In this document: piece after piece, positions 27,768-59,039 of the stretch
Layout of the letters: each line of letters starts with the position of its first letter
Numbering within the stretch: the stretch's first letter is position 1
Source of the DNA: Linyphia triangularis
Taxonomy: Eukaryota > Arthropoda > Arachnida > Araneae > Linyphiidae
Direction: 5' to 3'
NCBI GenBank assembly: GCA_963978545.1
Contig: OZ021723.1
Coordinates: forward strand, 11,806,593-11,870,592
Length of the DNA: 64,000 nt
Position numbers and translations under genes: made by a program
Notes under the pieces: generated by a model
What the model saw: only the letters and a program-made list of their open reading frames with translations
What the model was told of the DNA's origin: nothing
Database searches by the model: none

Positions 27768-29458
27768 CAGGGGCGTAGCCAGGATTTTTTTTCGGGGGGG
27801 GCTGAGAAATTGTAAATGTCAACTTCGGAAACAATAATTATCATTCAATAATTTACAAATCAAAATTAATCAAACTAAAAAACAAATAAACACTTTTTGG
27901 GATTGTAATACTTTTAGCACATATAGCATTCACTGGAAAGAAAATGTATTTGTTAAATGTAGTAATAATCAAATGACCCTTTCTTTTCACAATCGTGACA
28001 TTAAGTATTAATATGCATAAATAATATTTGATTAAGAATGCTTTAATGAAACACAATAAAAATGCTTTTTAAAATAAGGAAATGAGAAGAAATATCACAT
28101 TTAAAATAAAGTTTAATAATGGGACAATTGTATTTAATTAAGAGGCATTACAAAGTTAAATTGAATTTTCTAACAGTTCCACTGCTGACAAATTTGTTGA
28201 GGACCATCTCGTCTGAAACTGAGCATTGCCTATGGATATTCAGCTAAGCCAGTCCAGTTAAGCAATTTTGGCTTGTCGTACTTCTAAGATAAGTTTTCAA
28301 TCTCCGAAGAGTAAAAAAACTTCTCTCAGCTGTGGCTGCTGACACTGGCAGAATGGATAGGATTTTGAGCAAAGCGTATATGCTGGGGAAGATGTTTTGG
28401 TTGCATTCATACAGCGACCCAATCGCTGAGTTTGGTAACATTTCGACCGACATCCACTTTCTTTTCCACAGCTCCCATTCGCCTTCAATCACATCTTTGT
28501 AAGTAGGAAGATCATCTTCATAAAAGGAGATGCATGGTTCAATATCTTGAAAACTCTTCCCAACAGCGTGTTGCGGAATAAGGTTTTGCAAGGAAGAAAT
28601 TGTTTCTTTATGAGGCAAAAAGGGCTCATTTAATGAAGATATCATATCATCTAAGTAGGGAGTAAAAATTTTTATTCTATAGTATTCTTCAGTTGTTTTG
28701 TAGGCTATATTTGGGCGATTCTTTTGGATTTTACACACTCTTGATGTTTTGACTTCTATATTATGTTTTTCAGCTAAGGTTTCAGCTTCATTATATATAG
28801 AATTAAACTTATCCACATGGTTGTTTCTCATTTCTTGCAACATTGTCGTTATGTTGCTGACTTCACCCAAAGCACTGGACAAGTCAATGTTAGTACTTTG
28901 CAGATACTCGAATAGGTTGTATGTGCAACCGAGCAGTTTACTGACGATGCACAAACATACTAGAAAAGAAAACTGGCATGTGCTTTGCAACAAAATGTGT
29001 GCCTTTTTGGACGAATCGTCTGTTGCGAGGCCCTCGATTTCCTGTAACGAAGCGATGATTGGCTCTAAAAACTCCTTGAACATTAATATAGCTTCATGAC
29101 GTAAAATCCAACGAGTTTCACATAACGTCTTAAGTTTCGTCTGTTTTGTGTTAGGTTTCAAGTCTTTAATATTCTTTTTCAGAATATATGTTCGTTTTGC
29201 AGATTTATGAAAGAAACAGCAAATTTCTGAAATTACACCAAAGGCGTTTCGGATGCCCTGAACTTTCGTTACGTCAGATATGCAGAGATTGAGAGAGTGA
29301 GATACGCAATGGGTATATACAGCTTTCGGGTATTTTTTTCTCACCGTAGCTTATTACAACCATTATCCAAGCATAAATAGATCTATTTCTGACTTTCGAG
29401 GTTTGAAAATTTCGGAGGGGGCTGCAGCCCCATCAGCCACCCCCTGGCTACGCGCCTG
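27768..29458 (-). mobile_element. hAT transposon, internally deleted
   Basis: Ends CAGGGGCGTAGCCAGG and (minus strand) CAGGCGCGTAGCCAGG with perfect 8-bp TSD ccagacaa (27760-27767, 29459-29466). It contains the C-terminal two-thirds of a transposase, but only ~110 bp separate that frame from the right end, so the N-terminus and promoter are deleted. Confidence 0.92.
28244..29344 (-). pseudogene. hAT-family transposase, N-terminally truncated
   Basis: A 366-codon open frame shows hAT hallmarks: CVSHSLNLC near residue 13, CETRW near residue 75, and the C-terminal dimerisation block VSAATAERSFFTLRRLK that includes the conserved Glu. It resembles ZMYM1/52-kDa-repressor-like hAT proteins of animals. 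There is no in-frame ATG before the first homologous residues and the BED finger and first catalytic Asp region are absent. Near 28250 the frame should continue LNIHRQ, but a one-base shift places that tail in another frame (to about 28150). The copy is therefore dead. The long open frame suggests fairly recent decay. Confidence 0.88.
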
Positions 29459-30930: not shown

Positions 30931-31094
<164 letters not shown>

Positions 31095-31317
31095 TTTCAA
31101 TTAATAAAAAAAAAAATCCACATTTTTTTTTTTTTTTTTTAAATAAGTTCACGCAACAAACATATTTCGAAATTCATCTAATTTCCGAAAAAAGCAACAA
31201 AAAAAAGAGCTTATTTTTGGATCAAGGTTCTTTTTATAGCCTTCTCCCTTCTCATTCAAACAGACGTTGAAAGACTGTACAAGCATTCAAACCTCCATGT
31301 TCTTGAGAATACTGCAC

Positions 31318-31392
31318 ATTCTAGTAATATTTTACGCATGGTCACGTGACATGTTACCCTGTTTGGAGACGACTGCGCGCGCATCTAGTCAC
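31318..31392 (+). repeat. Candidate left terminal inverted repeat of the MULE-type element
   Basis: Matches 45228-45303 in inverted orientation; the best blocks are ttttacg, a ttaccc/tgaccc block and ggagac...gcgcgcgcatctag. Confidence 0.5.
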
Positions 31393-31815
31393 GTGACACG
31401 TTAACTTCCTGCTCCTGGAATCTGAAAGTGCTGGATACGATGGTAACATAAATGACGTAATTAGTGGCTTTTAGACACTTTAGTGGCGCTCGCCTGAGGC
31501 CTGACTATTGTCTGCACTGCTAGTCATCTTTTTGATCACGTCTGTAGAAAAACGTGGTTTTTTTAAAGAGACGTACTTCTTTGTGCTGCCTTTTTATTTG
31601 AGTTAATTCTTTTATTAGCTTTTATATTTGTGTGATTTGCCATTACTTGTTTTAGTATTTTGTGCTTTAATTACTTATTTTGTGGTTTATTGTTAATCCT
31701 ATTTGCATTCATATATCTTTTTGATCAAATATTTACGCTTTTTTTTTCTATTGTTTACCTTTGCTATTAGATTGTGCTTAGCTATATTTTCTTCAGTTTT
31801 TCACATTTCCTTAAG

Positions 31816-33379
31816 ATGAGAATTCTCGTAATCGGCGATTCCATTGTTAAGAATCTGGGGTTATTCTTAACGGAGGAGTTGCTTGATCATGATGTTTTTC
31901 TCAAACCGTATCCAGGTTACAAGATTGAAGGGTTGAAGGATATGAGGTAAATTCCTAGTTCACGTTTATGGGTTGGCGCACTTTTGAAAAGTTGGCGACA
32001 GAGCCAGAATGTCGCCAATTCGGAATTCCAATATGAAAAATTGAGAAACGAACCAGCTTCATGATTTGTGGTTTAGGAAGGTTGAAGCCAAAGCGCGTCA
32101 ATAAAAAAAACGGGGTTGCCAAATTTAGAACTGTATCGCCTACAAAACCGCGCCAAATTGGCTTGGCGATATTTTAACGTCAACTAGGAATAGACCGGAT
32201 ATGATTTCCTCTTTGGACAACCAATACGACTGGGTTTTTGTGCATGTTGGTACAAACAATACCTATCATGATCACACTGAGACCATGTTAGAAAAGTATG
32301 GTTGTCTCTTTGAGGAAATACTGTTTTTTAACCCTGATGTCAGGGTTATCGTTTCAGGTATCCTACCCCGTAAGGAGAACAGTTTTCCAGAAGAGGCTGG
32401 TAAAAGGGATAGGTTTGTGAACCAACTGCCTTCCTTAAATAAAAAAATCGAATACATTAATTCTAGGCTGGAAAAGCTATGCCTAGGCCGTGAGGCATTC
32501 TTTTATTACAGGTTGCACGAGCCTATCTTGGGAAGAGACGGCCTTCATCTCGGACCACGTGGTCATCCACAGATGGGGAAGGATGTCGCAAAGACACTAA
32601 AGACATTGATAGGTAAGGAACTTAAGGTATGTAATATCCCTCGGTTTCTTTCTCCCGAGATTTTCCCTTCTTTATCTTTAGGATATTCTCAACAGTCCTG
32701 TACTACTTCCTTTCCAAAATCTTTTTCTTCATTATTCTCGCCAAATGCTCTTGTCCCTTCTATATCTTTCTCACCTGCTCTCTCTTCTAAGCATTCTGCT
32801 TCCGCTACTTCTTCTAAGCCTTTCACTTCCACTGCTTCTTCTAAGCTTTTCACTTCCGTTACTTCTTCTAAGCCTTTCACTTCCGCTACTTCTTCGAAGC
32901 CTTTCACTTCCACTACTTATTCGAAGCCTTTCACTTCCGCTACTTATTCTAAGCCTTTCACTTCTACTTCTTCTAAGTCTTATGCTTCTGCTCTTGCTCC
33001 TAATTCTAAGCCTTTTGCTTACCAGATTTCTTCTAAATCTTATGCTTCTGCTCCTTCTTCTAAGTCGTATGCTTCTGCACTTACTTTCAAGCCTTCTACT
33101 TCCGCTTCTCCTAAAGGTCAAAATTCGCGGTCGCCAGTCGCCAAATGCGACCAATTCTTACGTTTTGGCGACCATTTTTTCACTAAAGTCGCCAATGTGG
33201 CTACATTTGCTAAACGTTCAACAGCCATCCCGATTCCCGACCTGAAACCTCTCCCCAAACCAATCCCTTTTCCAATAGAAATACGGCTACTGGTCGCAGG
33301 GGTGGGAATTCTGCGCCAATTGCACCAGCGCGCGCCAAAAATGGTATCCTGCGCCAACCTGCTACAAAACCACATTTAA
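31816..33379 (+). CDS. SGNH/GDSL-type hydrolase domain with 8-residue repeat tail
   Basis: Exon 31816-31946 starts MRILVIGDSI, giving the block I Ser in GDS at residue 9. It splices in frame to 32194, where FVHVGTNN supplies block III (GTNN near residues 63-66) and GRDGLHLGPRGH supplies the block V Asp and His (DGLH, about 159-162). These are the catalytic blocks of SGNH esterases/lipases; the usual GxND is GTNN here. From about 32790 the protein becomes an (S/T)SKPFTSA-like 8-residue repeat. After 33112 the frame runs into an inserted hAT element and stops at 33379, so the native C-terminus is missing; the repeat resumes at 36725 in the same phase. The substrate is unknown. SGNH domains of this kind occur in some mobile elements, so a role in the element rather than the host is likely. 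Confidence 0.75.
31946..32196. mobile_element. 251-bp MITE acting as a candidate intron
   Basis: Ends GGTAAATTCCTAGTTCACGTT-like (left, first 20 bp) and GGTCTATTCCTAGTTGACGT (minus strand, right) match at 18 of 21 positions. The 8-bp TSD ggatatga flanks it at 31938-31945 and 32197-32204. The left end supplies donor AG|gtaaat (31947) and the right end acceptor aatag| (32193). Removing the insert and one TSD copy restores KDMISSL in frame; splicing instead gives KDMRPDMISSL. Confidence 0.88.
32790..33111 (+). repeat. Coding 24-bp minisatellite, part 1
   Basis: Tandem units like tcttctaagcctttcacttc encode an 8-residue (S/T)SKPFTSA-like repeat at the C-terminal side of the hydrolase domain. Antisense frames through it are shadows. 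Confidence 0.85.
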
Positions 33380-35491
33380 GTGCAATTCTGCTCCAATTTT
33401 CTTTAAATCTTCTTTTAAACGCTCACGCTAAAGCACCAAACCAGCTCCCGCACGTCAAATCTATGCGGAGACGAAATTACGGCAACTTCAAGGGCCGTTT
33501 TCTCACGAATTTTCAAAACATTCGTTCCCCCCCCCCCCCCCCCCCTCAACGGAATGCAATGTGTGGATTATCTCTCTGAAATCGACATTCACGCATGCGC
33601 ATTCATGTTCAAACACGCTTTGCATCGGTTCAAATTAAAATTGCCGAGACATAGCGAGATAGAATTTAGGGGCCAGCCTCAAAATTTCCAATTTCTAGTT
33701 AGCACGGATGGCCATTTCGTACGTACGTACCTTGATTAAGTGTGTTTCGCCGGATTTTTACCACGCCCTCTTGTTCTAAATAAAGAAGAAAGGAATTGCT
33801 AAAAAGTTAAAGGTGTATAACCATCAAATGTTTTTACTAAGCATTTAAAAAGAATAATTCCGCTCGGACACGTAGTGACGATGCCTTCTATTAAATTTAG
33901 GGATGTTTTTTATAATTAACTTGTTGGCTGTTGGTCATTAACTTTTAAACGTCCGTTTTACATTTGAAATTAAGTATCACAAAAATGTAATCAAAATCCC
34001 GGAATGTTTCCGATTAAAAAAAAAAAAACTAATACTTTTTTATAAGTTTATAGAACGGCATGCAGGGTAAGATCGCCGTTTTGATGCAAAATTTGAACCA
34101 ATTTGGAAAGTAAAAAAAATTCTCGAAATTTTAGAACATTCACAAAAATTTAGAAACAGTCTTATTTTAATTTTACTGTATTGCTATTTTTGCTATAAGA
34201 ATTGCTATTTTTACACAAATGAGTTTTATAATAATACAATTTTTTACATAAGTAGTTTTGGCCTTCTGATAGTACCTTTGGCAAATGGAATGTTAAAATT
34301 TTAATTAGTTCATTTTTAATTTAACTCTTTTTAACAAACTGACTTCAAAGAGAGGTACAGCTCTGAAATTTTCATAAGTGGTTTTGCCTTCGAATTGTAC
34401 ATTTGTGACAAACAGAATGTTAAAATTTAATTAGTGTTTTTTTAAAAAAAAAATTTAATTAAAAAAAATTACAAAACGACTTCTATTAAGGCTGCAGCTC
34501 AAAAATTTTCAACATAAGTAGTTTTGGCCTTCAAATTGTACATTTGTGACAAACAGAATGTCAAAATTTTAATTATTTTTAATTAATTTTTTTTTATATT
34601 GTATAAACCGACTTCAAATAGAGGTACAGCTCTAAAATTTTCAACATAAGTAGTTTTGGCCCCTTTTTTTTTTGTTAAACTTTATAAAAACAGAATTTTA
34701 AAATTTTAATTTGTTTTTTATTTAATATTTTTAAAAAGCGACTTTTAATAGATCTAGAACTCTGAAATTTTCAATGTAAGTAGTTTTGGCCGTCTAATTT
34801 TGCTTTTCATAAACATGTTATAATAATTCAGAGGGGTGAGGGGGGTTGTGTTATTGTATTAGCGGGCACATTTTTTGGATCTCGATGGGGACGGGGTTTT
34901 AATATTAAGGGTTTACGTTGCAATTAATATTTAGCGAGTCAAGCAAATTTGTGCTTGCACTGCAATGAACCTTCTAGTGAGTGAAGCGAGCCTGTCCTTG
35001 CATAGCAATACATTTTCAGCGAGTTTGTGCTTGTGTAGCAATTAAACTTTTCAGAGAGTTAAGCGAGCTGTGTTTGTGTTACAATGAAACTCTTAGTGAG
35101 CAAAAAGAGCTTGGTTTTGCATAGCAAAGCCATTCGCAAAATGTCAAACTAATAAGTATTTTTTTTTTTTTTTTAATTTACAAATTATATTTTTTAAATT
35201 TGCAAATTATATTTTATTTTGTAATTTTATGTACATCTTATAATTTTATATTTAATAACATGTTTTTTATGTAGAAAAATAAAATTATACAAATTCAAAT
35301 TTTAATTATTGTAATTGTTGTTAAATCAGCTACAATTTATTATATTTCTGGTACTAATCTTCGAATTTTGCTGCTACATTTTCTCTTATTCTGCTCCAAA
35401 AATTAAATTTTGCTGCTCCAATTTTTTGCAAATCTGCAGCAAATGTTAAATTTTGCTGCTCCAAACTGGGCTTTAGCACTTCCCACCCCTG
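33297..35491. mobile_element. Inner element with CAGGGGTGGGAA ends
   Basis: Left CAGGGGTGGGAATTC and right (inverted) CAGGGGTGGGAAGTG. Flanks actggtcg and gtaaatgc do not match, so either the TSD is lost or a boundary is wrong. It includes a poly-C run at 33526-33545 and a Helitron-like fragment. Confidence 0.55.
34228..35130. repeat. Helitron-related minisatellite fragment
   Basis: Tandem units with ttttcaacataagtagttttggcc (period ~110-130 bp), followed by gtgaagcgagcctgt units, match the interior of the Helitron at 12475-15825. The canonical CTAG 3' end is absent, so it is truncated. Confidence 0.75.
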
Positions 35492-35700
35492 GTAAATGCC
35501 ACAGAATCAGGGATTTTAAAGAAATTGAAGGATTATAACATTATGTATATGGTCTTTGTTGCTGATTTTATTGGTGTTTTGTCAAAAGTGTCCCAAGCCT
35601 TAAGAGTCCAAAGACATTTTACTAAATATAGCCAATTCTAAGATGAAAAAGGGTGTCAATGACATCAATGCGATGAAAAAGGATGTGAAGGAATGATTGC

Positions 35701-36375
35701 TTGGATTTACTAAAGAGTGTGACGCTATTGACCATGCGAAATATAGATTTTGCGGGCAGGTTTTACTGTTGCCTGCCAAAAAACATAATAATCAGGCGGA
35801 ATGTGGAGCCATGGGAAACTACAGTTAATTTTTATACTAGTTTTTCAGATATTTTTAACAAAAGGGTCACCACTACATCTCCATTGTTGAGAATATTTCA
35901 AACAATGGATGCATTATTTATTCCAAATTGTGAGAAAAGAAAGTTTAATAGTTACGGTAATGAATCGATTGAAGAAGTGGCTGAAATGTTCGAGTTGGAC
36001 AAAAGCAGTTCCCTGCAACAATGGAGAGAACTGAAACCATTAATTAAATCAAACTTTGCAGGCTCAACGAATTTCCTTCGCTTATTTAAAATGCTATGCA
36101 GTGATTCGCTCACTCATTTGAATGAAATGAAAAAATTGGTCAACATCCTACTATGCATACCTGCAAGTAATGCTGAGGTAGAAAGAATATGGAGCGGGAT
36201 GAAAAACACACTTGGAGAGCGAAGTTAATCTATGACCAAAGAAACTTTGCAATCTAGACTGAGAATCCAAAAGAATGGACAAGACATAGCGAGTCAAAAT
36301 TTAACGAATGCCATCAATATGTGGTGGAAGCATTCCCTAGATTCTGGTTCTACTAGGAGACAGGATTTTATTTAA
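35701..36375 (+). pseudogene. hAT-family transposase C-terminus, broken
   Basis: The frame 35701-36228 encodes the C-terminal part of an hAT transposase, ending with the dimerisation signature LCIPASNAEVERIWSGMKNT, which includes the conserved Glu. A TAA at 36226-36228 interrupts it. The same frame then continues MTKETLQSRLRIQ...MWWKHS to a stop near 36375, as expected for the family tail. The N-terminal two-thirds are absent. It probably belongs to the 33112-36724 element. It is not coding for an active enzyme. Confidence 0.8.
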
Positions 36376-36724
36376 AAATTTATGACACATCAGCTCTATA
36401 TAATGTTGTTCACTAAATTTCTTTTTACCCTTTGATTTTGTCTCCTCACTTAATTATATTTATAATTATTCATTTAACATGCAGATTCAAAAATTTTCCT
36501 CTAGCCTGAGCTCATGTGAATTTTTTTAGTGCTTCAAAGTGACATGTTCAACATAATGTTTAAAAATTACAAAAGGCGGATCCAGTTTTCTTTGAAATAT
36601 ACATTGTTTACTCACAAATTTTTTGTTTTTAAAGTTTGGCTACCATGTTTTGAAATTTGGCTACCATTCTGTGGGGTTTTAGTAGCCATTGGCTACCAAT
36701 TAAAAAATTGAGTTTTGAGGTATA

Positions 36725-39700
36725 GCTTCTCCTAAGACTTATGCTTCTGCTCTTACTTCTAATTGTTTGACTTGCCCTACTTTTTCCAAATCGTATGCTT
36801 CTGCACTTACTTCCAAGTCTTTTGCTTCCACTCTTCCTAAGCCTTTTGCTTCTGCTCCTCTTCCTAAGCCTTTTGCTTCTGTTGCTCTTCCTAAGCCTTT
36901 TGCTTCTGTTGCTCTTCCTAAGCCTTTTGCTTCTGTTCCTCTTCCTAAGCCTTTTGCTTCTGTTCCTCTTTCAAAGCCTTTTGCTTATGTTCTTCCTTCT
37001 AAGCCTTTTGCTTCTGTTCCTCCTTCTAGGCCTTTTGCTTCTGTTCCTCTTTCTAAGCCTTTTCCTCATGCTCCTTCTACTAAGCTTTTTCCTCAAGCTC
37101 CTACTAAGCCTTTTCCTCACATTCCTTCTACTAAGCCTTTTCTTCATGCTCCTACTAAGCTTTCCTATTCTAAATCTTCGGTTTGCTCTTACAAACTACC
37201 TTCTTTTTCCTCTAAATCTTTTTCTTTCACTCCCTCTTCAGAGTCTGCCTTTCCTACTCCCTCTTCCAATATGGTTTACACTGTAAAGGTGTGCAATCGA
37301 TTTTCAGTGTTGGAAAATACTCCCTCTCTCTATCATAAATCCCTCTCTTCTCCTTCAACTAAACCCCTTTCTGTTTTAAATCATTCCCAATCAAATTTTA
37401 CAAGCGTGTTTTGTGAAAAAATAGATTATAGTCTCTCAACTGTGGAACTATGTGCTTTCAAGCCAACTGTAGAGGGAAAATGTAATTCCAATCAGCACCA
37501 TGTAACTGGAGGTGGAGATGTTAAATGTACTTATCCTAGACAGTGCTCACAATGCAAAGTATATTTTCCCACTCGAAACACTTTTCATAAACATGTTAAA
37601 AGAGCTCAGTGTAAGTCAAACCAAGTAGAGGTATGTACAGTTTCGTATCCTAGAGAGTGCCCCAATTGCTTGAAATCGTATCGTTCTAAAGCATCGTTCT
37701 TCAATCATAAAAAAAAGTGTAACAATCAACAAATGCCTGCAAGCTCCCTGGTTTCTTCAATTAATGTGAAAAATAGTTTAGCACTTTATGACACTGACTC
37801 AATGGAATCCCCTCCTGACAATATCTCATCAACTTTTTACCCAGGTTTAAATTCTGAAGCGGATATGCAATGTCCATCTGGTGCAGAAATAGATTGTGAA
37901 ATTTTCCAAAATAGTTTTAAGTCAACTTATCCCAAGAAATGTGAAACCTGCAGTATTGTTTTTCAATATCGACAGGGATTTTATAGTCATAAAAGTAGGT
38001 GTTCTATTACTAAGTATAAGTTTAACAAATGCCTATATCCCGAGTGTGAAGAATCATTTAGGCAGCTTGGTCGCTTAAATAAACACTTATTGGAGAAACA
38101 CAATTTAGGGAGCATGAAAGTTTTAACCTTTAATTCACTTGATACCTTTTTAGTCTGGTTGGATTCTGAAGGTACTTCAACCTACAGCTCATTTAAAAAG
38201 TTAACTGGAGTTAAAGTTAGTGGATCAAAGAAACTTCACTATTATTCCTGTCAGTTCTATGTGTCCCCTTCTTTGCAAGCTAAGCCTATCAAAGGTCATT
38301 TTCGTAAAAATCAAAAAGGTACTATTCCAATAGATATCAATTGTCCAGTTAGAATGTATGTATGTGAAGAGGTAGATACAGTAACTGTATATTATTTTTC
38401 AGAACATAATCACCACATTGGTTTTGAAAATTGTATATACCAACCCCTAAAACTACATTTCAGGGATTCTATAAAACTACTGTCACAGTTAAAAGTTCCC
38501 ATTCCAGAAATTCAGCGCTTATTAAGAGAAGATGTAGCTCATCGTGGTAATCGTTTCATACATCCCACAAAGGAAACTCTTGCTAACCGCAAATCAATTC
38601 AAGCGTATGCAAGACGAATGCACACTTCTCTGTACCCAGAAAATTATGCCGTTTCTGTTTGTACGATTGTGCAAAATCTAAGTTACGAAACATATAACTC
38701 TGTTTTAATATTTAAACCTTTCAACTCGGAAACATTATTTGGTCCCGACAATCTTGATACGTTACCAAATTCAAAGGGTATTTTTGCATTGGGTATTCAA
38801 ACAGAAGAACAGAAAGAAATGCTGGTTAAAAATTCTCATAAAACACTTTGCATTGATGCCACTTTCAATACTAACCAGTATGATTTTTATCTTATTACTA
38901 TTGTTATTCCTGATGAATTTGATCAAGGTTACCCAGTTGCTCATTTCATTACAAATCGTTTAGATTATTGTTTGATGGTTTGCATGTTTACCAGCTTAAA
39001 ACTTAAAGTACCTGAATTAGAAGTGCATACTCTAATGACTGATGATGATACATTCACATATGAAGCATTTGAGACAGTCTTTGGTCCTGACGTTAGGCAT
39101 TTTTTATGTCAGTGGCATGTTCTACGAGCTTGGTTACAACAAATTAATTTAAAAGGGCTGTCTCAAGAACTTAAAGAAGAGATGAAAATGAAGTTAAAAG
39201 AATTATTGTATGAAAAGAGTATTAACACATTTCATATCCTTCTTAAACAGTTTCACAATTTTACTTCTAAATTCCAGGCATTTCACAATTATTTTTTTAA
39301 TACATATCATCACAGGCATGAATTATGGGCAGGATGTTTCCGCACCTCACCTTTTACCTCAATTACAACAAACAACTATTGTGAGTCATTTCACAATCAA
39401 CTAAAATCTGTCTATTTAGAACGCAAGTACAATAGACGATTAGATGTCTTGTTACTAAAGCTGCTGCAGATGGAAGAAGACCGTTATCTAAGCCATGCTC
39501 AAAAGAAGTTAAATGATTTCCCTATTGCTTCCAAACAAAATAAGATTTCAAAAACAACACTTAATTGTGGGCGAAAGATACCAGATGAACATGTTGCACA
39601 TCAAAATGATTCCTGGTTAGTTAGTTCTCAGTCAACCAAAAACAAACACTACATAATTAAACAAATTTGTACAGAGTGCCCAATAATTGATCACTGTTAT

Positions 39701-40453
39701 TTTAAATGTAATGCAGTGACTTGCAAATCTTTATGCAGCCATTTGTATACTTGTACCTGTCCAGCTGATAGCAATTTATGCAAACATATCCACAAAGTTC
39801 ACTCCATGTACATCCGCAAACATCCAGAAAGCACCACAAATACTTTATTGCCTATGGAACCATCAGAAATAGTTAAACAAAATAATATACCATTGTATTC
39901 TAATAAACATGTTGGTGTATCATCTGCTAGGACAGTTACTAATGAACAAATATCAGGTGAGTTAGACAAACTGTTTGGTGAATTAGCAGGGTATATGAGG
40001 ATTCCACTTGTACGAGATGTTATGCTAAAACCTACAATCACATCATTAAGATCGTTAGTTTCTAGTTGCAGAGGTGTTGCAAATTTAAAAGGTATTGTAA
40101 GTGATATTCCACATTCTAAAGTTGCGCCTAATCAAAGGCTTGCTCGTCAAGTAGATTTCTTCAAAAATAATCCAAAGAAAATGTCAAGAAAAACAAGAAA
40201 ACAATTGCATTCTAAAAGGCACAATTCAAAAAGATGTTTAGATTTAGAAAACATTGATCAGGCTGCTAAGTGTATTGTGCCTCCTATTAAGCGATTTAAA
40301 TGTTCAGCTATTGATGAAATTCAATCACCCACCAAACATACAGAAGAAGAAATTGCTAGATCTTTTTCTATAGAGTTAAAAGAATGTTATTGTCCAAAGA
40401 TTGTAGGTATTTATAACCTGAGTTATGTTTCTCTTAAATCTCTTGATCATTGA
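36725..40453 (+). CDS. Finger-MULE transposase-SWIM protein (1,228 codons from first Met)
   Basis: From the first ATG (36767), residues ~10-135 are 8-residue KPFASV(P/A)L repeats. C2H2-type fingers follow at about 259-281, 298-318, 392-412 and 422-446. Residues ~475-551 hold a C...C...HNHH module like the WRKY/GCM-type DNA-binding zinc fold found before MULE domains. The MULE DDE core has Asp697 (CIDATF), Asp759 (MTDDD), a CQWH motif near 781 and Glu873 (NYCESFHN). A SWIM finger C996-x-C998-x6-C1005-x-H1007 and a basic tail follow. The frame is intact and the likely role is DNA cleavage and strand transfer. The frame is open from 36719, upstream of the ATG, in the phase that would join the hydrolase frame at 33112 after removal of the insertion. 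The start is therefore uncertain and the native protein may begin at 31816. Confidence 0.85.
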   Translation, partial: ASPKTYASALTSNCLTCPTFSKSYASALTSKSFASTLPKPFASAPLPKPFASVALPKPFASVALPKPFASVPLPKPFASVPLSKPFAYVLPSKPFASVPPSRPFASVPLSKPFPHAPSTKLFPQAPTKPFPHIPSTKPFLHAPTKLSYSKSSVCSYKLPSFSSKSFSFTPSSESAFPTPSSNMVYTVKVCNRFSVLENTPSLYHKSLSSPSTKPLSVLNHSQSNFTSVFCEKIDYSLSTVELCAFKPTVEGKCNSNQHHVTGGGDVKCTYPRQCSQCKVYFPTRNTFHKHVKRAQCKSNQVEVCTVSYPRECPNCLKSYRSKASFFNHKKKCNNQQMPASSLVSSINVKNSLALYDTDSMESPPDNISSTFYPGLNSEADMQCPSGAEIDCEIFQNSFKSTYPKKCETCSIVFQYRQGFYSHKSRCSITKYKFNKCLYPECEESFRQLGRLNKHLLEKHNLGSMKVLTFNSLDTFLVWLDSEGTSTYSSFKKLTGVKVSGSKKLHYYSCQFYVSPSLQAKPIKGHFRKNQKGTIPIDINCPVRMYVCEEVDTVTVYYFSEHNHHIGFENCIYQPLKLHFRDSIKLLSQLKVPIPEIQRLLREDVAHRGNRFIHPTKETLANRKSIQAYARRMHTSLYPENYAVSVCTIVQNLSYETYNSVLIFKPFNSETLFGPDNLDTLPNSKGIFALGIQTEEQKEMLVKNSHKTLCIDATFNTNQYDFYLITIVIPDEFDQGYPVAHFITNRLDYCLMVCMFTSLKLKVPELEVHTLMTDDDTFTYEAFETVFGPDVRHFLCQWHVLRAWLQQINLKGLSQELKEEMKMKLKELLYEKSINTFHILLKQFHNFTSKFQAFHNYFFNTYHHRHELWAGCFRTSPFTSITTNNYCESFHNQLKSVYLERKYNRRLDVLLLKLLQMEEDRYLSHAQKKLNDFPIASKQNKISKTTLNCGRKIPDEHVAHQNDSWLVSSQSTKNKHYIIKQICTECPIIDHCYFKCNAVTCKSLCSHLYTCTCPADSNLCKHIHKVHSMYIRKHPESTTNTLLPMEPSEIVKQNNIPLYSNKHVGVSSARTVTNEQISGELDKLFGELAGYMRIPLVRDVMLKPTITSLRSLVSSCRGVANLKGIVSDIPHSKVAPNQRLARQVDFFKNNPKKMSRKTRKQLHSKRHNSKRCLDLENIDQAAKCIVPPIKRFKCSAIDEIQSPTKHTEEEIARSFSIELKECYCPKIVGIYNLSYVSLKSLDH
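36830..37160 (+). repeat. Coding 24-bp minisatellite, part 2
   Basis: Units cttcctaagccttttgcttc plus 4 nt encode LPKPFASV-type octapeptides, continuing the array at 32790-33111. Confidence 0.88.
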
Positions 40454-41070
40454 ATTTATTAAAATTAAAAGATCCTCAGTTTGTTTTAGGATGGTTGTAT
40501 GATGAAATTATTGATTCATTTATATATATGTTATCTAACAACAAAGTTACCTTTTCATCCATGAGCTCAAGTATTTCTTTAATACTTTGCTCAGGTGAAA
40601 GTTCATTTGATTTTGATCTTCCTACAACAGTTATATTTTTTCCCGTTTGCATCAATGATCACTGGATTTTATTAGTTGTGAATAAAATAAATAAAGTAAT
40701 TGAAGTGTATGATCCAAAGCCAGGTACTAATTACCAAAACTATTTGTATAATTTTAAGACTTCTTTGGAAAGAGGCGGCATAAGTAATTTGCATGAATGG
40801 AAAATTACTTTCCCTCCTCATACACTGCAACAGGATTCCATCAGTTGTGGTGTATTTGTTTGTTATTATGTGCATCAAATTATACATGAGCATAATGTTT
40901 CAACAAACTTTAGTCACAGTCAATTTAGGCCATATATGTATCATGCTTTGTTGAGTGCAGCTCCTTTAAAGTTTAGTAATGATGAAAATTACATTTGTTC
41001 TGATGACAATCAACATGAAATTTCTCAACCCAATGGGAATTTAGAAAAAAGCTCAAGTTTTTCAATTTAA
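40447..41070 (+). CDS. Ulp1-like (C48) cysteine protease domain 1
   Basis: The open frame begins at 40447, overlapping the end of the transposase frame in a different phase; no ATG precedes the domain. It shows the Ulp1/SENP order of catalytic residues: His in NDHWILLVV (codon 40660), Asp in VYDPKPG (40711), Gln in LQQDS (40828-40833) and Cys in ISCGVFVCYY (40846). Such proteases remove SUMO-like modifiers or process polyproteins. Homology to domain 2 extends back across the frame junction into the transposase tail (IVGIYNLSY...SLD against TINGIKITQYM...CLD), so it was probably fused to the transposase before a one-base change. Alternatives are frameshifting or an assembly error. Confidence 0.8.
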   Translation, partial: SLNLLKLKDPQFVLGWLYDEIIDSFIYMLSNNKVTFSSMSSSISLILCSGESSFDFDLPTTVIFFPVCINDHWILLVVNKINKVIEVYDPKPGTNYQNYLYNFKTSLERGGISNLHEWKITFPPHTLQQDSISCGVFVCYYVHQIIHEHNVSTNFSHSQFRPYMYHALLSAAPLKFSNDENYICSDDNQHEISQPNGNLEKSSSFSI

Positions 41071-41716
41071 CAAAATTGATGAAGATAATGTTTCGGATCA
41101 TGTAGTCACCATAAATGGCATAAAAATTACTCAGTATATGCTTAAGTGTTTAGATCCTTCTCCTACTTCTAATGAAGAGAGAATTTTAAAGTTAGCTTCC
41201 CCTTGCTTTAAAAAGGGTTGGTTGTATAATTCAGTAATTGATGCATTTATTTATAATATAATTAAGCACAATTCAAGCATTATTTCTATGAATTCTGTAC
41301 TTTCGGTAGAAATGCTAAACAAATTTGCCTATAAAAATCTTAGTCGTTTGGGAAATGATCTTAAAAAAAAAGAGCTTTTATTAATTCCTATTAATATAAA
41401 TTCTCATTGGGTGTTGCTACTTGCTTACATTAAAAAGTGTGAATTTCAATTTTTTGATCCATTGCGTCTAGAGATTACTAGAGATTTCACGAGTATTATA
41501 AGTAAGTGTGTTTTGTTTCTAAATGATTTGTTAGGTATTTCATCTAAGTGGTCAATTAATTGTCCTCAGCATGTTCAACAAACAGATAATTTTAATTGTG
41601 GTCTGTTTATTTGTTATTATGCTGAACAAATAATTAAAAACGCCTCATTAACCAAAGAATTTAACTCTTATCGTTTTAGGGAATATGTTCATAAAAGCAT
41701 AATGGGTTTGTCATGA
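41045..41716 (+). CDS. Ulp1-like (C48) cysteine protease domain 2
   Basis: The frame is open from 41045 (first ATG 41138) to TGA at 41714-41716 and is in the same phase as the transposase frame. Catalytic residues are His in NSHWVLLLAY (41405), Asp in FFDPLR (41456), Gln in QQTDN and Cys in FNCGLFICYY (41597). It is a tandem paralogue of domain 1, each about 190-200 residues, with the shared leader KGWLYNSVIDAFIY against LGWLYDEIIDSFIY. It overlaps domain 1's 3' end by 26 bp. AATAAA occurs near 41760. Confidence 0.82.
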   Translation, partial: KKAQVFQFNKIDEDNVSDHVVTINGIKITQYMLKCLDPSPTSNEERILKLASPCFKKGWLYNSVIDAFIYNIIKHNSSIISMNSVLSVEMLNKFAYKNLSRLGNDLKKKELLLIPININSHWVLLLAYIKKCEFQFFDPLRLEITRDFTSIISKCVLFLNDLLGISSKWSINCPQHVQQTDNFNCGLFICYYAEQIIKNASLTKEFNSYRFREYVHKSIMGLS

Positions 41717-43445
41717 TGAAAATGTTTCATGTATGTGTTAGTAATTTATACCTCTTTTAAATAAATACTGTTAAAGTTGTAAGTAAATTAAGTAGTAATG
41801 GTTATATTGCATAAGTCTTGCAGGGAAGAGGCTGGCACCCGAGTTAAAAACTAAACCCCTGTTCAAATACACTTATGCAATCTGAGAACCCGCAGGTGTC
41901 AGGCAGTAATGCCGTCAAAAGCCTATTAAAAATATTAATATACATAAAAGTTTTTTAGTGTGACTGTTAAATAGATATTTAATTTTTTTAACAGCAATAT
42001 TGTGCTTGTTCCACATTGTGCCATAGTTCTAGGATTGAAAATTAATTTAATTTAATTATTTTTTTAATTTCATTCCATGTTAAAAGCTCTCCTGTAATAT
42101 TTTTTTGTATCAGAATTGGTTCAGTGTTCTCATTTCTCTTAATAGAATCACCACTTGAATTAATTGATAACATCACATAAAAATTGGAAATAAAGTGAGG
42201 CTACTTTATTGTGTCAAATTACTTATGTTTGTTTTATTTATTCAACAGTGTAAAAGAAACTAGATGACCATGACTAACTAGATATCTGGATCACCATTTA
42301 GAAAAAACCTCAATTCTTAATAATGTTACTCAAGCATTCCAAGAGTTTAAATTTTGTGTATATTGGTTTTCTTTTTAAATAATAAAATTCTTAAATGAAA
42401 TATGCTTTGTAATTATATTCTTGGTGTATGTATTAGCACAAATATTATAAATTTCATTATTATTTTTTGTTATATGCAAATGATATAGCTCAATATTATC
42501 AATTGTTGCCTGTTATTTAGTAGGTAACAAATATATTCAGACCACCTATTACTAGTTTATTAAAACTGTCAAATTCAGCATAGTAAATAAACTATTAAAT
42601 AATTATAATATATTTTTGAAAATAATTAAGCTAAATTTTTCACTCTGAAATGCCATAAAAATAATTAAAATATATATATTAAATGATGAATGAAATATTA
42701 AATGATGCCTTACAAATAGAAAGTTAGGTGTAAATAAATTTAAAAAAAAATAAAAAATTTACTTTTATTATTTTGTTACAAACTTATTGCATTGATTAAG
42801 GTTAACAAAAATGCATAATCTCCTTAAATTGTTGGGAAAATTTCCAAAAGAAAGCAATGCATTTATTGATATATGCATGTCTTTTCCTGTTGGATTTTAA
42901 TTTGTGGGTACTAGTTTTTATGAACTTAATTTAGGTGCGTTTATACAAGAAATTCCTGCATTGGATAAAAAATCAGTTTTAACTCTACCTTTATAACATT
43001 CATTCCAATAAGAAAACTTTTATTTGGATGTACTTTCTAATCATCAATAGTTGAAAGACTTACTAATTTAATGGGATATAAGACACATTTTTAAAAGAAT
43101 TCTATTAAATTTGCTGGGTGTGTAATGAAATATTGCATATCGAAAAACAACTTGAATGATGATGGCAAACAATGAATTTTGTATTTGATTAAACACTATC
43201 ACGCTTACTTTTAGAATATTCAAATGATAAGGCATACATATTTTGAAAAGTTCTCACCATTTTTTGACAATTTATAAAATGATGGAAACTATTTATAAAA
43301 ATTTCGTGCATTTATAAAAAGTTAGCAATTATTGAATAGTAAGTGTTCTATGCAGGTAGAGTTAAAATTATGATTTCATTGAACTCAAAAACATCAATAT
43401 TTTTGGAAAAGAGATTTTTTTATAATATTTCGTTACCCAATGCAG
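41717..43445. other. AT-rich DNA downstream of the protease frames
   Basis: Contains AATAAA-like motifs (near 41760 and 42190) and no recognisable coding sequence. It may include the 3' UTR or an intron of the element. Confidence 0.5.
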
Positions 43446-43585
43446 GGTGGTGGGGGCAATTTGCTCAGGATCTACAGAAATCTAAAGGAAGGTCCTCTCT
43501 GCCTCTTAAGGAGCTAACCTGGGGTAAAATTCTACAATTAACAAAAGAGAAAGAACAGGCGATTGATCCCGCAGATTTTCAATGA
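43446..43585 (+). CDS. Possible small terminal exon, product unknown
   Basis: After a good acceptor (cccaatgcag) the sequence becomes GC-richer and codes for 45 residues including GRSSLPLKELTWGKILQL and ending IDPADFQ, then TGA. Coding character is better than in the surrounding AT-rich DNA, but I recognise no domain and no partner exon. It could be the last exon of a transcript of the MULE-type element or of an unseen host gene. Confidence 0.35.
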
Positions 43586-45227
43586 ATTCAGCTTTGACTA
43601 TTTTACATTTTTAAAAGCATATGAAAGCGATCGCATTTACTAGTATTTTAGTTTTAAATTTGCAGTTCATATAAGCATATATTTTCCTTTTATACACACC
43701 GACTAAACTAATGTACGTTATTTTGCTAGCATAATACTCGAGCTTCGTTTCAAAACTGTTCCTAGTTTTAGGGTTATGGAAAGTAGACATAAGAATATTC
43801 CATATTTGAAACGTTTTTATCCCTTTATTAACTCTTATAGATCGGGGTAGCTTAGTTTTCCAATGTACAGCTATTGAAATGAGTGCAAATATTTTCATCT
43901 CATTGCTGATTATTAGGTTTGAAGAACGGTTTCGGTTTCCCTTAATTGAGATTAGTTCAAATTGTAATTGTTTAGTGTTGCTTATGGCTTTAAGAATATG
44001 TGTACCAGTTTTCAGAGTCAATAGGTGTTTTCTGCATTTGGAACCCTTTAAAGTAAGTTAATCGAGATTCGAATGGCTGTGTAAGATTATCTATATTAGC
44101 CATGGTTATCATTTGTATTAAATTGTAAAGTTTTGGCTGTTTGAGGATTTGGGACCAGCACTGACACTGCGTACTGCTCTAAAAAAAGGAACTATGACAG
44201 TGATTGTAGCAGATAGATTACACGATAAAAGAACGGCAACTTGGTTTGAATTTCCAATATCTTATTATTAAAGAAGCAAATATGGACAGATCTACATAGA
44301 AGACCTCCTAAAAGGCACACCAGAAGTTATGTTTCATTAGAGCGATATGTCGTCGCGATGCTTCAGTACAGTACAGTCTAATTTATATTAAAGTAAAAAT
44401 AATATACATATTTATAGACCTCCTACTCCTTTTTAAAAGTATTTTAAAGAAAAATTCACGTTTTTAGTTAATAGGGTATTTGACACCATCAACAAATAAT
44501 TACCAAATGCTGCCTATGAATAGTATTTAACGAGGTAATAATAATGCGAGCATTTTTTACTCGAAATAATTGCTCAAATTTTTATAAATCGAATTCTAAA
44601 AAATGGTTTTCTGAGCGCTTCGTCATGTGACCAGAAACGATCGCTTAAGCTCCTCCCAGAATGTGACGTCAGTATTGTGGAGTGGAAGTTTGTGAACAAA
44701 ACAACTTCACACGTTTATTTTTAAGCTTGGTTCGTCTTTCTTCCTACTTTATGATTAATTATGACCATTAAAGGTGAATTTTAGGAAATATTTATTTAAA
44801 GAAGCTTTATTGGATAAATGCGCGATGCTGTTTATGCAATGTTGACGTCACACAATCAGATGGATTTTTGAGCAGCGTTTTAGGGGCGGGGCTTCTGCTT
44901 GCATTTTAAAATGCGTTTTTTGGCGCTTTGCGACATTATTTTGGAAAAAGAAAAAATACGTGTCTTTTATTTTGGGCATATGCTTTATTTAAAACATATT
45001 TTGAAAATTTGTCAAATTCCCTATTGTCGTTTCATAAATATATATCATAAAATTTATTTTAAAGCACACAGGGACAGTTTCTAAACGAAAAATAAAATAA
45101 CGCAGTGAATTCATTAACATGAAATTCCTGAAATTAAAATTGAATAAAAAAATAAATCTCTTAAGATATTGAGTTATTTTCTCAATGTGGGGTCCACCAC
45201 CACTCCACAATTCCTAATCACGTCCAG
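43586..45227. other. Non-coding right part of the MULE-type element
   Basis: Two GC-richer stretches with tgacgtca-like motifs occur at 44610-44670 and 44840-44930 in otherwise AT-rich DNA. No gene is supported. Confidence 0.4.
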
Positions 45228-45303
45228 AAAAAACTAGATGCGCGCGCCGGTGTCTCCTCCGAGGGTCACTTCATACGTCATATCCGTAAAAGATTCCTCG
45301 AGT
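45228..45303 (-). repeat. Candidate right terminal inverted repeat of the MULE-type element
   Basis: Inverted partner of 31318-31392. The innermost 14 bp (gcgcgcgcatctag) are identical. Confidence 0.5.
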
Positions 45304-46381
45304 GGAGGCCGTTCATCCCCTTGATCTTGAAGACATCTTCACTACACTTCAAAACACATCCCTTTCTGTTAAAAGTATCCTGGGATCGAATTATCAATAA
45401 ATAATCTTCCCGTCCTCAGGACCAAATATACCTTTTTCTGTCGAAAAGAAGGAAGAGATTTTGACTTTCACATGCGTAATGTTCAACGCCAACCAGGGGG
45501 GAAAAAGAATAATGAGAGGTTGACTATTTCGGTTACCCTCCTCCTCAGAAATGGCCACCTTCATGGTAATTGGCTAAACTTTAAAGTTTTGTTAGAAAGG
45601 AAAAGGAAGTTTGTTTATAAACTGCATAAGAACTCGTCCAGCTCTAGCTTGTGCTTGTAAATAAGCATCATGTTTGAATTCAGATTAATAATCCTCGTTT
45701 GCAACCCCACAGTGGAGAAATATGCCAATTTTTTACAAGAAATAGACTTACAAACAGTTTTGTAAAAAGTATCTGTGTGTAAAGTAGCACTACTCGGTGG
45801 GTGCCCACGGGAAGCAGGAAGATCTACTTTTTTAAGTTTTAGTGATTATTTCGGGGGGGGGGGGGGGGGAGAGGAGTCTTATTTTACGATATTATATAAT
45901 GTCAAATTCTATCAATGGACTTTTTCATTTAATTTTTTAATTTTATCGTTAGACTTTTTCATGTGTAAGTATAACTATTGGCAATAGAGACTTCGAAACT
46001 GGAATTTGTTTTGTAATAACTGATCAATAATTAAATCGTATTTGTTTATATTGCCTTATTAAAAATATTACTTATAATTATTAGTAAAACATTCTCTTTG
46101 GAAAACAATTTTTCCCTACATACCTTACTTTAGATTACTCGAGTAGCTATGGATTATCCAGTAAAACTACGTATTTTTACTTATTAAGCTCAATGCATTA
46201 ATATTTTATGAATATGTTAAATTTGGATGCACAGTTACTGATTTCCTAGTTTGATGTAAGTATAATGTAAGATTTATACTTAGTTAGTCGCAAATAAAAG
46301 TAGCAAGTTCCCACTTTCATTGGAATTTCTTCAGTATAGTCGATTACCTCCGGAGATGTAACTTGCTAAAATGTTTAATAT
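45304..46381. other. Intergenic, nothing firm
   Basis: Includes a G15 run at 45855-45869. No supported gene or complete element. Confidence 0.45.
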
Positions 46382-47477
46382 TGTTATGAATTTTTCCACT
46401 GAGGCAATGATGGCACAGTTTTCACGGTTTAAAAGTATTTATTCTCTCTTCAGAAAACTCACAAAATTTATTCACAGGCAACAGTTTAATTACTCTCAAG
46501 CTTCAACACAAGCTTCAACAAAAATAACTTCGAATTCAGCGATTATTCAAGCTCACTCCAATAGGTAAACAAAGCGATCAGCTTTCATCGAAGTCCAAAG
46601 TCAATCTGAAAACTTTCCCGTTCTCCAGTCTTTTATATACAAGCGCGTGAGACATTCTCGAAATTTCCAGCCAATTCATCGGAAACGAAATATCTCGAAA
46701 CTTCTCGATTGCTTCAGGTTGGTTGGTTGTATTCAGATTATCTGGCGCCGTCAGCAACACGAGGGCTATAATGCGCCGAAAAATTTCGTCATTTAACAAA
46801 CCAACATACATTTACAAACACCCATGCCTACACGGGACTCGAACCCGCAACCTCGCGGTCTAGAAGCCAGCACGCTAACCACTATACCGTTTGGTCGGCC
46901 GATTGCTTTAGGTGTTGCCACCTTTTTCTAACTTGTATAATCGCTATTAATTAATAAATAAAATAAGATAAAAATAAATTACAATAGAATTTTGAAATAA
47001 TACGTCACTATTTACAATATATTGTTACGAATTTTTTCCACTGAGGCAATGATGGCACAGTTTTCACGGTTTAAAAGTATTTATTCTCTCTTCAGAAAAC
47101 TCACAAAATTTATTCACAGGCAACAGTTTAATTACTCTCAAGCTTCAACAAAAATAACTTCGAATTCAGCGATTATTCAAGCTCACTCCAATAGGTAAAC
47201 AAAGCGATAAGCTTTCATCGAAGTCCAAAGTCAATCTGAAAACTTTCCCGTTCTCCAGTCTTTTATATACAAGCGCGTGAGACATTCTCGAAATTTCCAG
47301 CCAATTCATCGGAAACGAAATATCTCGAAACTTCTCGATTGCTTTAGGTGTTGCCACCTTTTTCTAACTTGTATAATCGCTATTAATTAATAAATAAAAT
47401 AAGATAAAAATAAATTACAATAGAATTTTGAAATAATACGTCACTATTTACAATATATACAGACAATTTGTGCAACA
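46382..47477 (-). mobile_element. LTR-like dimer element, second copy, TSD atat
   Basis: This is the minus-strand counterpart of 962-1856: TGTTGCACAAATTGTCTG begins at 47477 and the element ends ATAACA at 46382. Two direct units repeat with the same shortened junction. TSD atat at 46378-46381 and 47478-47481. A SINE interrupts the second unit. Confidence 0.78.
46719..46899 (-). mobile_element. tRNA-derived SINE, copy 7, in the LTR-like dimer
   Basis: Antisense copy with 13-bp TSD cgattgcttcagg (46706-46718) and cgattgctttagg (46900-46912), with one mismatch. Confidence 0.9.
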
Positions 47478-48051
47478 ATATATACGGTACAATTTTTAAT
47501 ACAATTTTTTTATTAAATAAAATAGTTAATGAAAAAACAAAAGGACAGTGTTAACCACCTTACGCTAAGATAGCAAGTCAGATATGCGACGAAAGAAGGG
47601 GAAGTGGGGGTCAATCAATGGATATGGATTATTTTGAAATATATTTCTTGAACACTGCATAGATTTTTTTTTTAAAGACTTTTTTTAAATATTGAATTTC
47701 GTCCTGACTAAGGCACGGCAAATTGTTGAGCCCCTCCCTCAGGAAAATCCTAAATCCGCCGTTGAGTCAGTTGGATGTTACTTTCTATTTCGCAGACAAT
47801 TGTTTACTGACGTGGAATTTGCACAATATGAAGCTGGAATGGGAGAATAGACGGAAGTTAACAAAATAAATAAACAAATTCATAAAGTTCTTGCTTTAGC
47901 TGCGCGTGACTTCGAGCGAAACGGACTTCAAACTTCAAACGCGTTTTTCTCGAAACTATTTTTCCCAGGACGGTCGACACGATAACTCCTAGAATTTTTA
48001 ATATTTTTAGACGAAATTTTTTTTTTTAAATGTTCGTAATTGATGTCGCTA

Positions 48052-58332: not shown

Positions 58333-58751
58333 CTACTGATTCTGTTCGGAGCAATCCGTCTCGTGCTGTCTTAAAACATTCCTATCCTCGAACATCTTAT
58401 TGCAGAATCTGCACGAATGCGTCCTCAGATGCACATTGAGCGTGTGCTTGTGGCGAAAGCTCTTCCCACAAATCTTACATCCGAAGGGCTTCTCACCTGT
58501 ATGCACTCGCATGTGAACAATTGCCTCGTTCTTTGTGACAAAACCTTTGCTGCAGTAATCACAGCTGTACTTGTGATGCCTCAAGTGCCTCGCGCAGTGT
58601 ATGTCGAACTGCTGTTTTCCTTGCGTTGAGTAGCTGCACATCGAGCACTTGAGCAGGTCGCTTGACTGGTCCTTACTGTTGGGCGAGACTACGAGGGATT
58701 TGGCGAAGTGGCGGAAGGTCAGCATCATGGAGTCTTGGAAGAGTTTGGTTT
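58333..58751 (-). CDS. C2H2 zinc-finger protein, terminal coding exon
   Basis: Acceptor tccactag precedes 58751; the exon enters with 2 nt of a split codon and encodes 138 residues to TAG at 58335-58333. A preamble KLFQDSMMLTFRHFAKSL is followed by four fingers: CSMC...H, CDYC...H..H, CKIC...H..H and CRFC...H with a final Cys (HETDC, C2HC type). The canonical TGEKPF linker joins fingers 2 and 3. Such proteins bind DNA in the nucleus as transcription regulators. The partner exons were not found up to 64,000 on the minus strand, so they lie beyond the window. In arthropods this layout (finger cluster in a separate terminal exon) is common in BTB-zinc-finger loci, but BTB membership is only an inference. 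The coding region looks intact. Confidence 0.88.
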
Positions 58752-59039
58752 CTAGTGGAAGACATAGAAAGGTTTTGAGTGGCATTGAGTATGGGAAATT
58801 TACTGTTGCAGTTAACTTAAAATAGCATAATTTAATGGGAGCTTTAGTTGAGCATTACGATAACCCAAATGATTGTTACAATAACTATGAATTTTGTAAT
58901 AGTAAACTTAGATGATTAATATAGTAACCTTAAAATTTTTTAAATATATTAAATTTAAAGGAATTTTTATAGAGTAACTTTCATTAAAGTTTACTACTAA
59001 TAAATTTTAATATAGAAACATCAAAGAGAATTTAAAAAA

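Follow-up and report, generated by a model that had tools for sequence, protein, structure and literature searches.

MULEs that carry Ulp1, MULEs of spiders, and SGNH hydrolases in retroelements and in fish Helitrons are all known already, going by the accessible portions of the papers cited here. The current study concerns a unit at 31–46 kb of a 64,000-nt stretch of DNA (the window; contig OZ021723.1, nt 11806593–11870592) from the spider Linyphia triangularis, in which an SGNH domain lies in line with a MULE transposase and two Ulp1 domains. The clades Spectre and Ghost are MULEs of arthropods, including spiders and a scorpion (PMC6446971); as summarised there, Spectre has C2H2 fingers, inverted ends of 74–76 bp and 8-bp duplications, and Ghost is listed with SWIM. 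Ulp1-bearing MULEs have been described as hydra and lancelet Mutators and as the plant elements Kaonashi and VANDAL (PMC2836005, PMC13317346). A role in transposition and repair has been proposed for Ulp1 and OTU domains (PMC2836005), while the Ulp1-bearing VANC genes have been linked to hypomethylation of the elements that carry them, the role of Ulp1 itself being stated as unknown (PMC13317346). Ginger1 DNA transposons combine a DDE transposase with a C-terminal Ulp1, in one case together with PHD (PMC2836005). Among SGNH proteins, texim is a hydrolase gene carried by fish Helitrons and related to CR1 esterases (PMC4021074), and PMC7599744, PMC6825717 and PMC9025612 also cite a case of an SGNH gene in a fish Helitron. 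In retroelements, SGNH/GDSL esterases are reported from CR1, RTEX and Penelope (PMC3905857), from ORF1 of L2/CR1 (PMC4120745) and from rotifer Terminons (PMC6431247), and the LINE ORF1 esterase has been proposed to act on acyl groups or membranes (PMC3905857).

The L. triangularis unit is most likely a disrupted copy of a MULE-type DNA transposon, one that probably encoded a single protein of about 2000 residues comprising an SGNH esterase, a linker of nine-residue repeats, C2HC/C2H2 fingers, a DDE transposase, a SWIM finger and two Ulp1 domains. The evidence lies in the domain order, the catalytic residues, the inverted ends, the inserts with their duplicated words, the matching frames, and an SGNH-MULE fusion in Argiope (two predicted proteins). 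As an earlier interpretation made from the letters of the window (the sequence-only reading) had stated, all modules lie in this order on one strand, the plus strand, with coding sequence extending to nt 41716. Of the features that mark the MULE superfamily, a MULE-type DDE domain and terminal inverted repeats around the unit are present; for another, a target duplication of 8–10 bp, there is one doubtful candidate (below). The unit is not the contiguous element of about 14 kb that had been proposed; this length is inflated by inserts of 251 and 3613 bp, and subtracting both by length leaves some 10.1 kb (10,108 bp, about 2000 residues), with an original one-frame span from nt 31816 to about 40446.

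The SGNH domain is split by the 251-bp insert. Its first part has 18/40 identities to P0002, 18/40 to P0008 and 19/35 to P0009 (related proteins, described below), each above 500 shuffles, and its second has 53/125 to P0008 and 55/136 to P0009; both pieces exceed 500 shuffles against all three proteins. The GDSI, GTNN and DGLH motifs of the sequence-only reading are present, and the Pfam Lipase_GDSL_2 match (8.4e-7, 30.1 bits) falls slightly under the curated cut-off of 32.9. The blocks of the catalytic Ser (GDS), Asn (GTN) and Asp/His (DGLH) are all kept in the window, P0008 and P0009, while P0002 is without the last. The window domain can be assigned to the SGNH fold, and its nearest solved structure by sequence is ZfL2-1, a LINE ORF1 esterase. 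Structure searches with the SGNH model did not return 4c1b among the 50 matches listed, while the sequence search does show it.

The SGNH frame runs on into a linker of 27-nt repeats, with a unit of nine residues rather than the octapeptide first read, and this linker is in turn interrupted by the 3613-bp insert. Both inserts lie between exact copies of a short word. That of the smaller insert, GGATATGA (8 bases), occurs on the plus strand of the 64 kb only at nt 31938 and 32197, and at two other places on the minus strand; that of the larger, 8–11 bases, GCTTCTCC(TAA), has no other site in the window, on the plus or the minus strand. Both copies of each duplicated word share the same phase, and the three outer pieces around the inserts are free of stops, so the 251-bp and 3613-bp pieces are later insertions into one former frame. 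SGNH through SWIM was once one frame. The larger insert holds a hAT dimerisation remnant (nt 35689–36228; E 2.4e-4; 21.2 bits, cut-off 21.4) as well as a nested piece with 12-bp inverted ends, CAGGGGTGGGAA. Its internal repeats (nt 34238–34815) recur at nt 14336–15635 with about 70–75% identity, which suggests a related insert at 14–15.6 kb of the window. The smaller insert starts AG/GTAAAT and ends near CAACTAG/G; judged by eye, splicing it out as an intron would add a few residues and leave the SGNH frame open, and it is possibly a transposon-made intron.

A reading frame of 1244 aa is still open in the element. Four fingers had been read from the sequence; the number stands, and their types are now specified as three C2HC and one C2H2. 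The transposase residues given earlier as D697/D759/E873 correspond to DAT 713, TDDD 774 and ESFH 889 of the open reading frame (ORF), an offset of 16, and the core matches PF10551 with 44.3 bits (cut-off 27.6). The SWIM pattern CxCx6CxH and the two Ulp1 domains were also recovered, each of the latter with a Peptidase_C48 match and a full His-Asp-Gln-Cys catalytic set (Table 1). A predicted model of Ulp1 copy 2 (pLDDT, a per-residue model confidence, of 80) has yeast Ulp1 as its best PDB match (E 2.5e-11); its best structure matches are SUMO proteases (yeast Ulp1, SENPs), with viral members of the clan at weaker E-values. Frame shifts occur near nt 40447 and between nt 41045 and 41070. An intron in place of the first was rejected because the preceding LSYVSLKSLD still resembles, by eye, LSFYMLKSLD of P0001; the second is possibly an intron. 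A recent tandem duplication of Ulp1 was likewise rejected, since copy 2 is closer to P0001 (81/214) than to copy 1 (55/162). The end of P0003 passes shuffles against copy 2 (88 vs 56) but fails against copy 1 (49 vs 57). The present copy is dead; single-frame synthesis of the giant protein is no longer possible.

Table 1. Coordinates of the features of the MULE-type unit in the L. triangularis window.
Feature	Position (nt)	Strand	Remarks
Left terminal inverted repeat, imperfect	31317–31389	+	Aligned to the reverse complement of 45233–45304
Coding start: SGNH, first part, with catalytic Ser block GDSI	31816–31945	+	No stop; matches to P0002, P0008, P0009
251-bp insertion	31946–32196		Inverted ends (19/24 positions); between exact GGATATGA copies at 31938 and 32197
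SGNH remainder, GTNN and DGLH blocks	32197–32630 (end approximate)	+	Pfam and alignments
Linker, first half, 27-nt (nine-residue) repeats	32757–33111	+	In SGNH frame
3613-bp insertion	33112–36724		Between exact copies of GCTTCTCC(TAA) at 33104 and 36725
Linker, second half	36725–37166	+	About 69–72% DNA identity to first half; TRF period 27
Zinc fingers, three C2HC and one C2H2	37544–38101	+	ORF residues 276, 314, 408, 438; same set in P0002
MULE DDE transposase core	38846–39385	+	PF10551 2.5e-11, PF21056 1.2e-9; Asp, Asp, Glu at DAT, TDDD, ESFH
SWIM finger CTCPADSNLCKH, CxCx6CxH	39752–39787	+	Pattern also in P0001 and P0003–P0007
Ulp1 copy 1	40447–41070	+	PF02902 (Peptidase_C48) 3.1e-11; His-Asp-Gln-Cys kept; frame change at start
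Ulp1 copy 2	41045–41716	+	PF02902 (Peptidase_C48) 9.5e-13; frame differs from copy 1
Right terminal inverted repeat	45233–45304	-	Alignment and shuffle test

With residues 470–1120 of the large ORF as query, seven related proteins (P0001–P0007) were found among 6149 candidates. The second SGNH piece found one, P0008, among 135, and residues 1–125 of P0002 found two among 109, P0002 itself and P0009. The nearest named relatives are from spiders, Argiope (Araneidae) and Stegodyphus (Eresidae). P0002 (Argiope bruennichi) carries in one chain SGNH, a repeat linker, three C2HC and one C2H2 fingers, and MULE; the SGNH part is identified through its alignments to P0009 (E 1.6e-22), P0008 and the window. 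P0009, also from A. bruennichi, has SGNH, repeats and then a short stretch that is 17/18 identical to the MULE core of P0002. The two are 54% identical over the matched SGNH stretch, a divergence that would fit more than one copy per Argiope genome. Thus the multi-module unit of the sequence-only reading stands, as the order SGNH-linker-finger-transposase recurs in P0002 and SGNH-repeats-MULE core in P0009, but its description as self-mobilising does not suit this copy, because it is disrupted. That reading had also named hydrolase and transposase in unrelated places as an outcome that would speak against it; MULE sequence accompanies this SGNH type in two of three proteins (P0002 and P0009), the third, P0008 (Stegodyphus dumicola), being SGNH alone.

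Only one of the seven transposase relatives, P0002, has SGNH, by alignment and not by Pfam. P0001 and P0005 start after the finger region and P0007 near it, and for this reason their N-termini say little on SGNH; in P0003 (Frankliniella fusca), P0004 (Bemisia tabaci) and P0006 the N-terminus is longer and holds no SGNH. P0001 (Araneus ventricosus) shows MULE-SWIM-Ulp1, and Pfam reports C48 in two of the seven (P0001 and P0005, one stretch each), P0006 being placed at the Ulp1 region by the aligner only. By eye only, the start of P0003 is THAP-like, and Pfam does not list it at 0.1. P0006 (1941 aa) has finger-MULE-SWIM and a long N-terminus, with, by eye, an Ulp1-like region lacking the Cys and a PHD-like end; it is perhaps a domesticated form. 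Searches of viral contigs with a protein alignment (51 pattern matches) and of genome contigs with P0001 (27 pattern matches) returned no relatives.

The imperfect inverted ends of about 75 bp seen earlier align over 73 columns, with a score of 63, where 2000 mononucleotide shuffles reached 33 at most, as evaluated on the single copy in the window. Runner-up scores to the true pairing were 44 and 58 (192 overlapping positions per end, true partner included). A candidate third copy of the end near 27.6 kb was dropped, its score falling from 58 to 29 once the query was shortened and the gap cost raised.

Several observations weigh against the interpretation given above. For the proposed ends the backing comes from the inverted repeat; neither a target duplication nor other copies add to it. 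The sequence-only reading had called for a 9-bp duplication, and a scan at the ends gave no convincing duplication of 8–9 bp for the whole MULE unit; the best candidate (8/9) has, by our own arithmetic, a chance expectation of about 0.4 over the scanned positions, and is out of register with the repeat ends. In the right ~3.5 kb no gene was recognised in the four ORFs scanned out of seven of at least 65 aa, which gave one weak match (0.058). The related proteins are database gene predictions: P0002 has no Pfam GDSL match at E 0.1, is without the DGLH block and stops inside the transposase, and P0008 is a 192-residue SGNH-only model with no transposase. Finally, no single protein spans SGNH to Ulp1, because the chains of P0001 and P0005 start only downstream of the fingers.

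Four other explanations were weighed, of which two keep the element as described. In the first, the SGNH domain serves for binding and not for catalysis, as in Oskar, for which loss of catalysis has been published (PMC2848206, in the part of that paper available). This would suit the missing DGLH block of P0002 but is rather unlikely, since the window, P0008 and P0009 all retain the GDS, GTN and DGLH blocks. In the second, the tandem Ulp1 domains would cleave the giant protein into parts rather than de-SUMOylate other proteins. Adenain-type proteases of the clan to which Ulp1 belongs cut viral proteins in this manner; the single giant chain ends in two proteases, and viral clan members are among the structure matches, at weaker E-values. 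Self-cleavage is nevertheless judged quite unlikely, given that the best structure matches are SUMO proteases (yeast Ulp1 at 2.5e-11, SENPs), that P0001 and P0005 show one C48 stretch each, and that no cleavage site was recognised in the element, although none was looked for. A domesticated, MULE-derived host gene rather than a mobile element is distinctly improbable: the 1244-aa frame, still open, and the missing target duplication speak for it, but the unit is enclosed by inverted ends, its coding region holds insertions and frame changes, and Argiope has two versions that have diverged to 54% identity in the matched SGNH stretch. That an unrelated MULE simply has as its neighbour an esterase gene or the remnant of a LINE ORF1-type esterase is very improbable, even though the solved structure closest in sequence to the window SGNH is a LINE ORF1 esterase and P0008 is annotated as SGNH alone, for the linker repeats continue the SGNH frame and resume in phase with a like 27-nt unit past the hAT insert into the transposase frame, the SGNH-MULE fusion occurs in another genome (P0002 and P0009), and no reverse transcriptase match was found in the six ORFs scanned of the eight of at least 150 aa at 25–52 kb, shorter remnants being unscanned.

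In a MULE-type transposon encoding one giant protein, binding to the terminal repeats would fall to the fingers and SWIM, and cut-and-paste mobilisation to the DDE domain. The Ulp1 domains would take SUMO, or a modifier like it, off the transposase or off host proteins of silencing or repair located at the element. The SGNH domain would act along the lines proposed for LINE ORF1 esterases, either by deacylation or by binding to membranes or acylated partners. More tentatively, the unit may represent a spider lineage of giant MULEs whose single chain combines the transposase, a LINE-type esterase and a pair of SUMO proteases. Such a protein would be a self-contained machine for both anti-silencing and targeting, and the lineage would be a further independent recruitment of the same type of esterase. 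What mobile elements gain from such an esterase (CR1, Penelope, Terminons, fish Helitrons) is an unsolved question. If SGNH is indeed joined to a DDE transposase, the benefit of the esterase would not require an RNA intermediate; the question would thereby become narrower and open to testing in a different type of element. The fusion in Argiope suggests that such transposons may carry their own tools for handling the host cell, and the combination of the esterase with two SUMO proteases agrees with the view that transposons edit host modifiers at their own loci.

Elsewhere in the window, a hAT transposase remnant (nt 28244–29350, minus strand; Dimer_Tnp_hAT 3.3e-7) lies just left of the element, and a TA run of about 160 bp (nt 30931–31092), a near-perfect palindrome, just outside its left end. 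Large inverted copies at nt 959–2137 and 46373–47480 show 94% identity over 583 columns, and their units of ~180 bp recur near 2.8–3.1, 11.4–12.0 and 14.8–15.0 kb. A C2H2 zinc finger frame on the minus strand (nt 58333–58854; Pfam 5.5e-11) is possibly a host gene exon. A 171-aa frame on the same strand (nt 13243–13758) has by eye the look of a mariner/Tc1-type transposase, with no Pfam match at 0.1. The window contains no tRNA and no Rfam match at the gathering threshold.

No publication of SGNH fused to a DDE transposase was found in the literature searched, among the matches listed (subscription papers and Repbase lay outside the search). The subject of PMC11939994, in its accessible text, is a plant gene with an insertion and not a transposon domain. 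Compared by description only, the unit resembles Spectre in its arthropod-type host and in having a C2H2 finger (here one C2H2 and three C2HC); the ends of Spectre are given as 74–76 bp, against a 73-column alignment here whose outer limit is not fixed. The main text on Ghost and Spectre (PMC6446971) makes no mention of Ulp1, SGNH, hydrolase or protease, unlike the element described here. With the Ulp1-bearing MULEs it shares a MULE context with an Ulp1 (C48) protease, but differs from them, as described, in its SGNH domain and in two diverged tandem Ulp1 copies after a SWIM-bearing transposase. Ginger1 likewise has a DDE transposase with a C-terminal Ulp1, although its core is Gypsy-integrase-like rather than MULE and, as described, it is without SGNH. 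Texim shares with it the presence of an SGNH hydrolase on a DNA transposon; it is, however, a Helitron-associated gene of fish, and the word "fused" does not occur in the available text of that paper, whereas here SGNH is in line with a MULE DDE transposase in an arthropod-type element. The retroelement esterases are also SGNH/GDSL proteins of mobile elements, and one of them, ZfL2-1, is the solved structure closest in sequence, but as described they sit in ORF1 or an accessory frame, whereas in L. triangularis the domain is joined to a DDE transposase.
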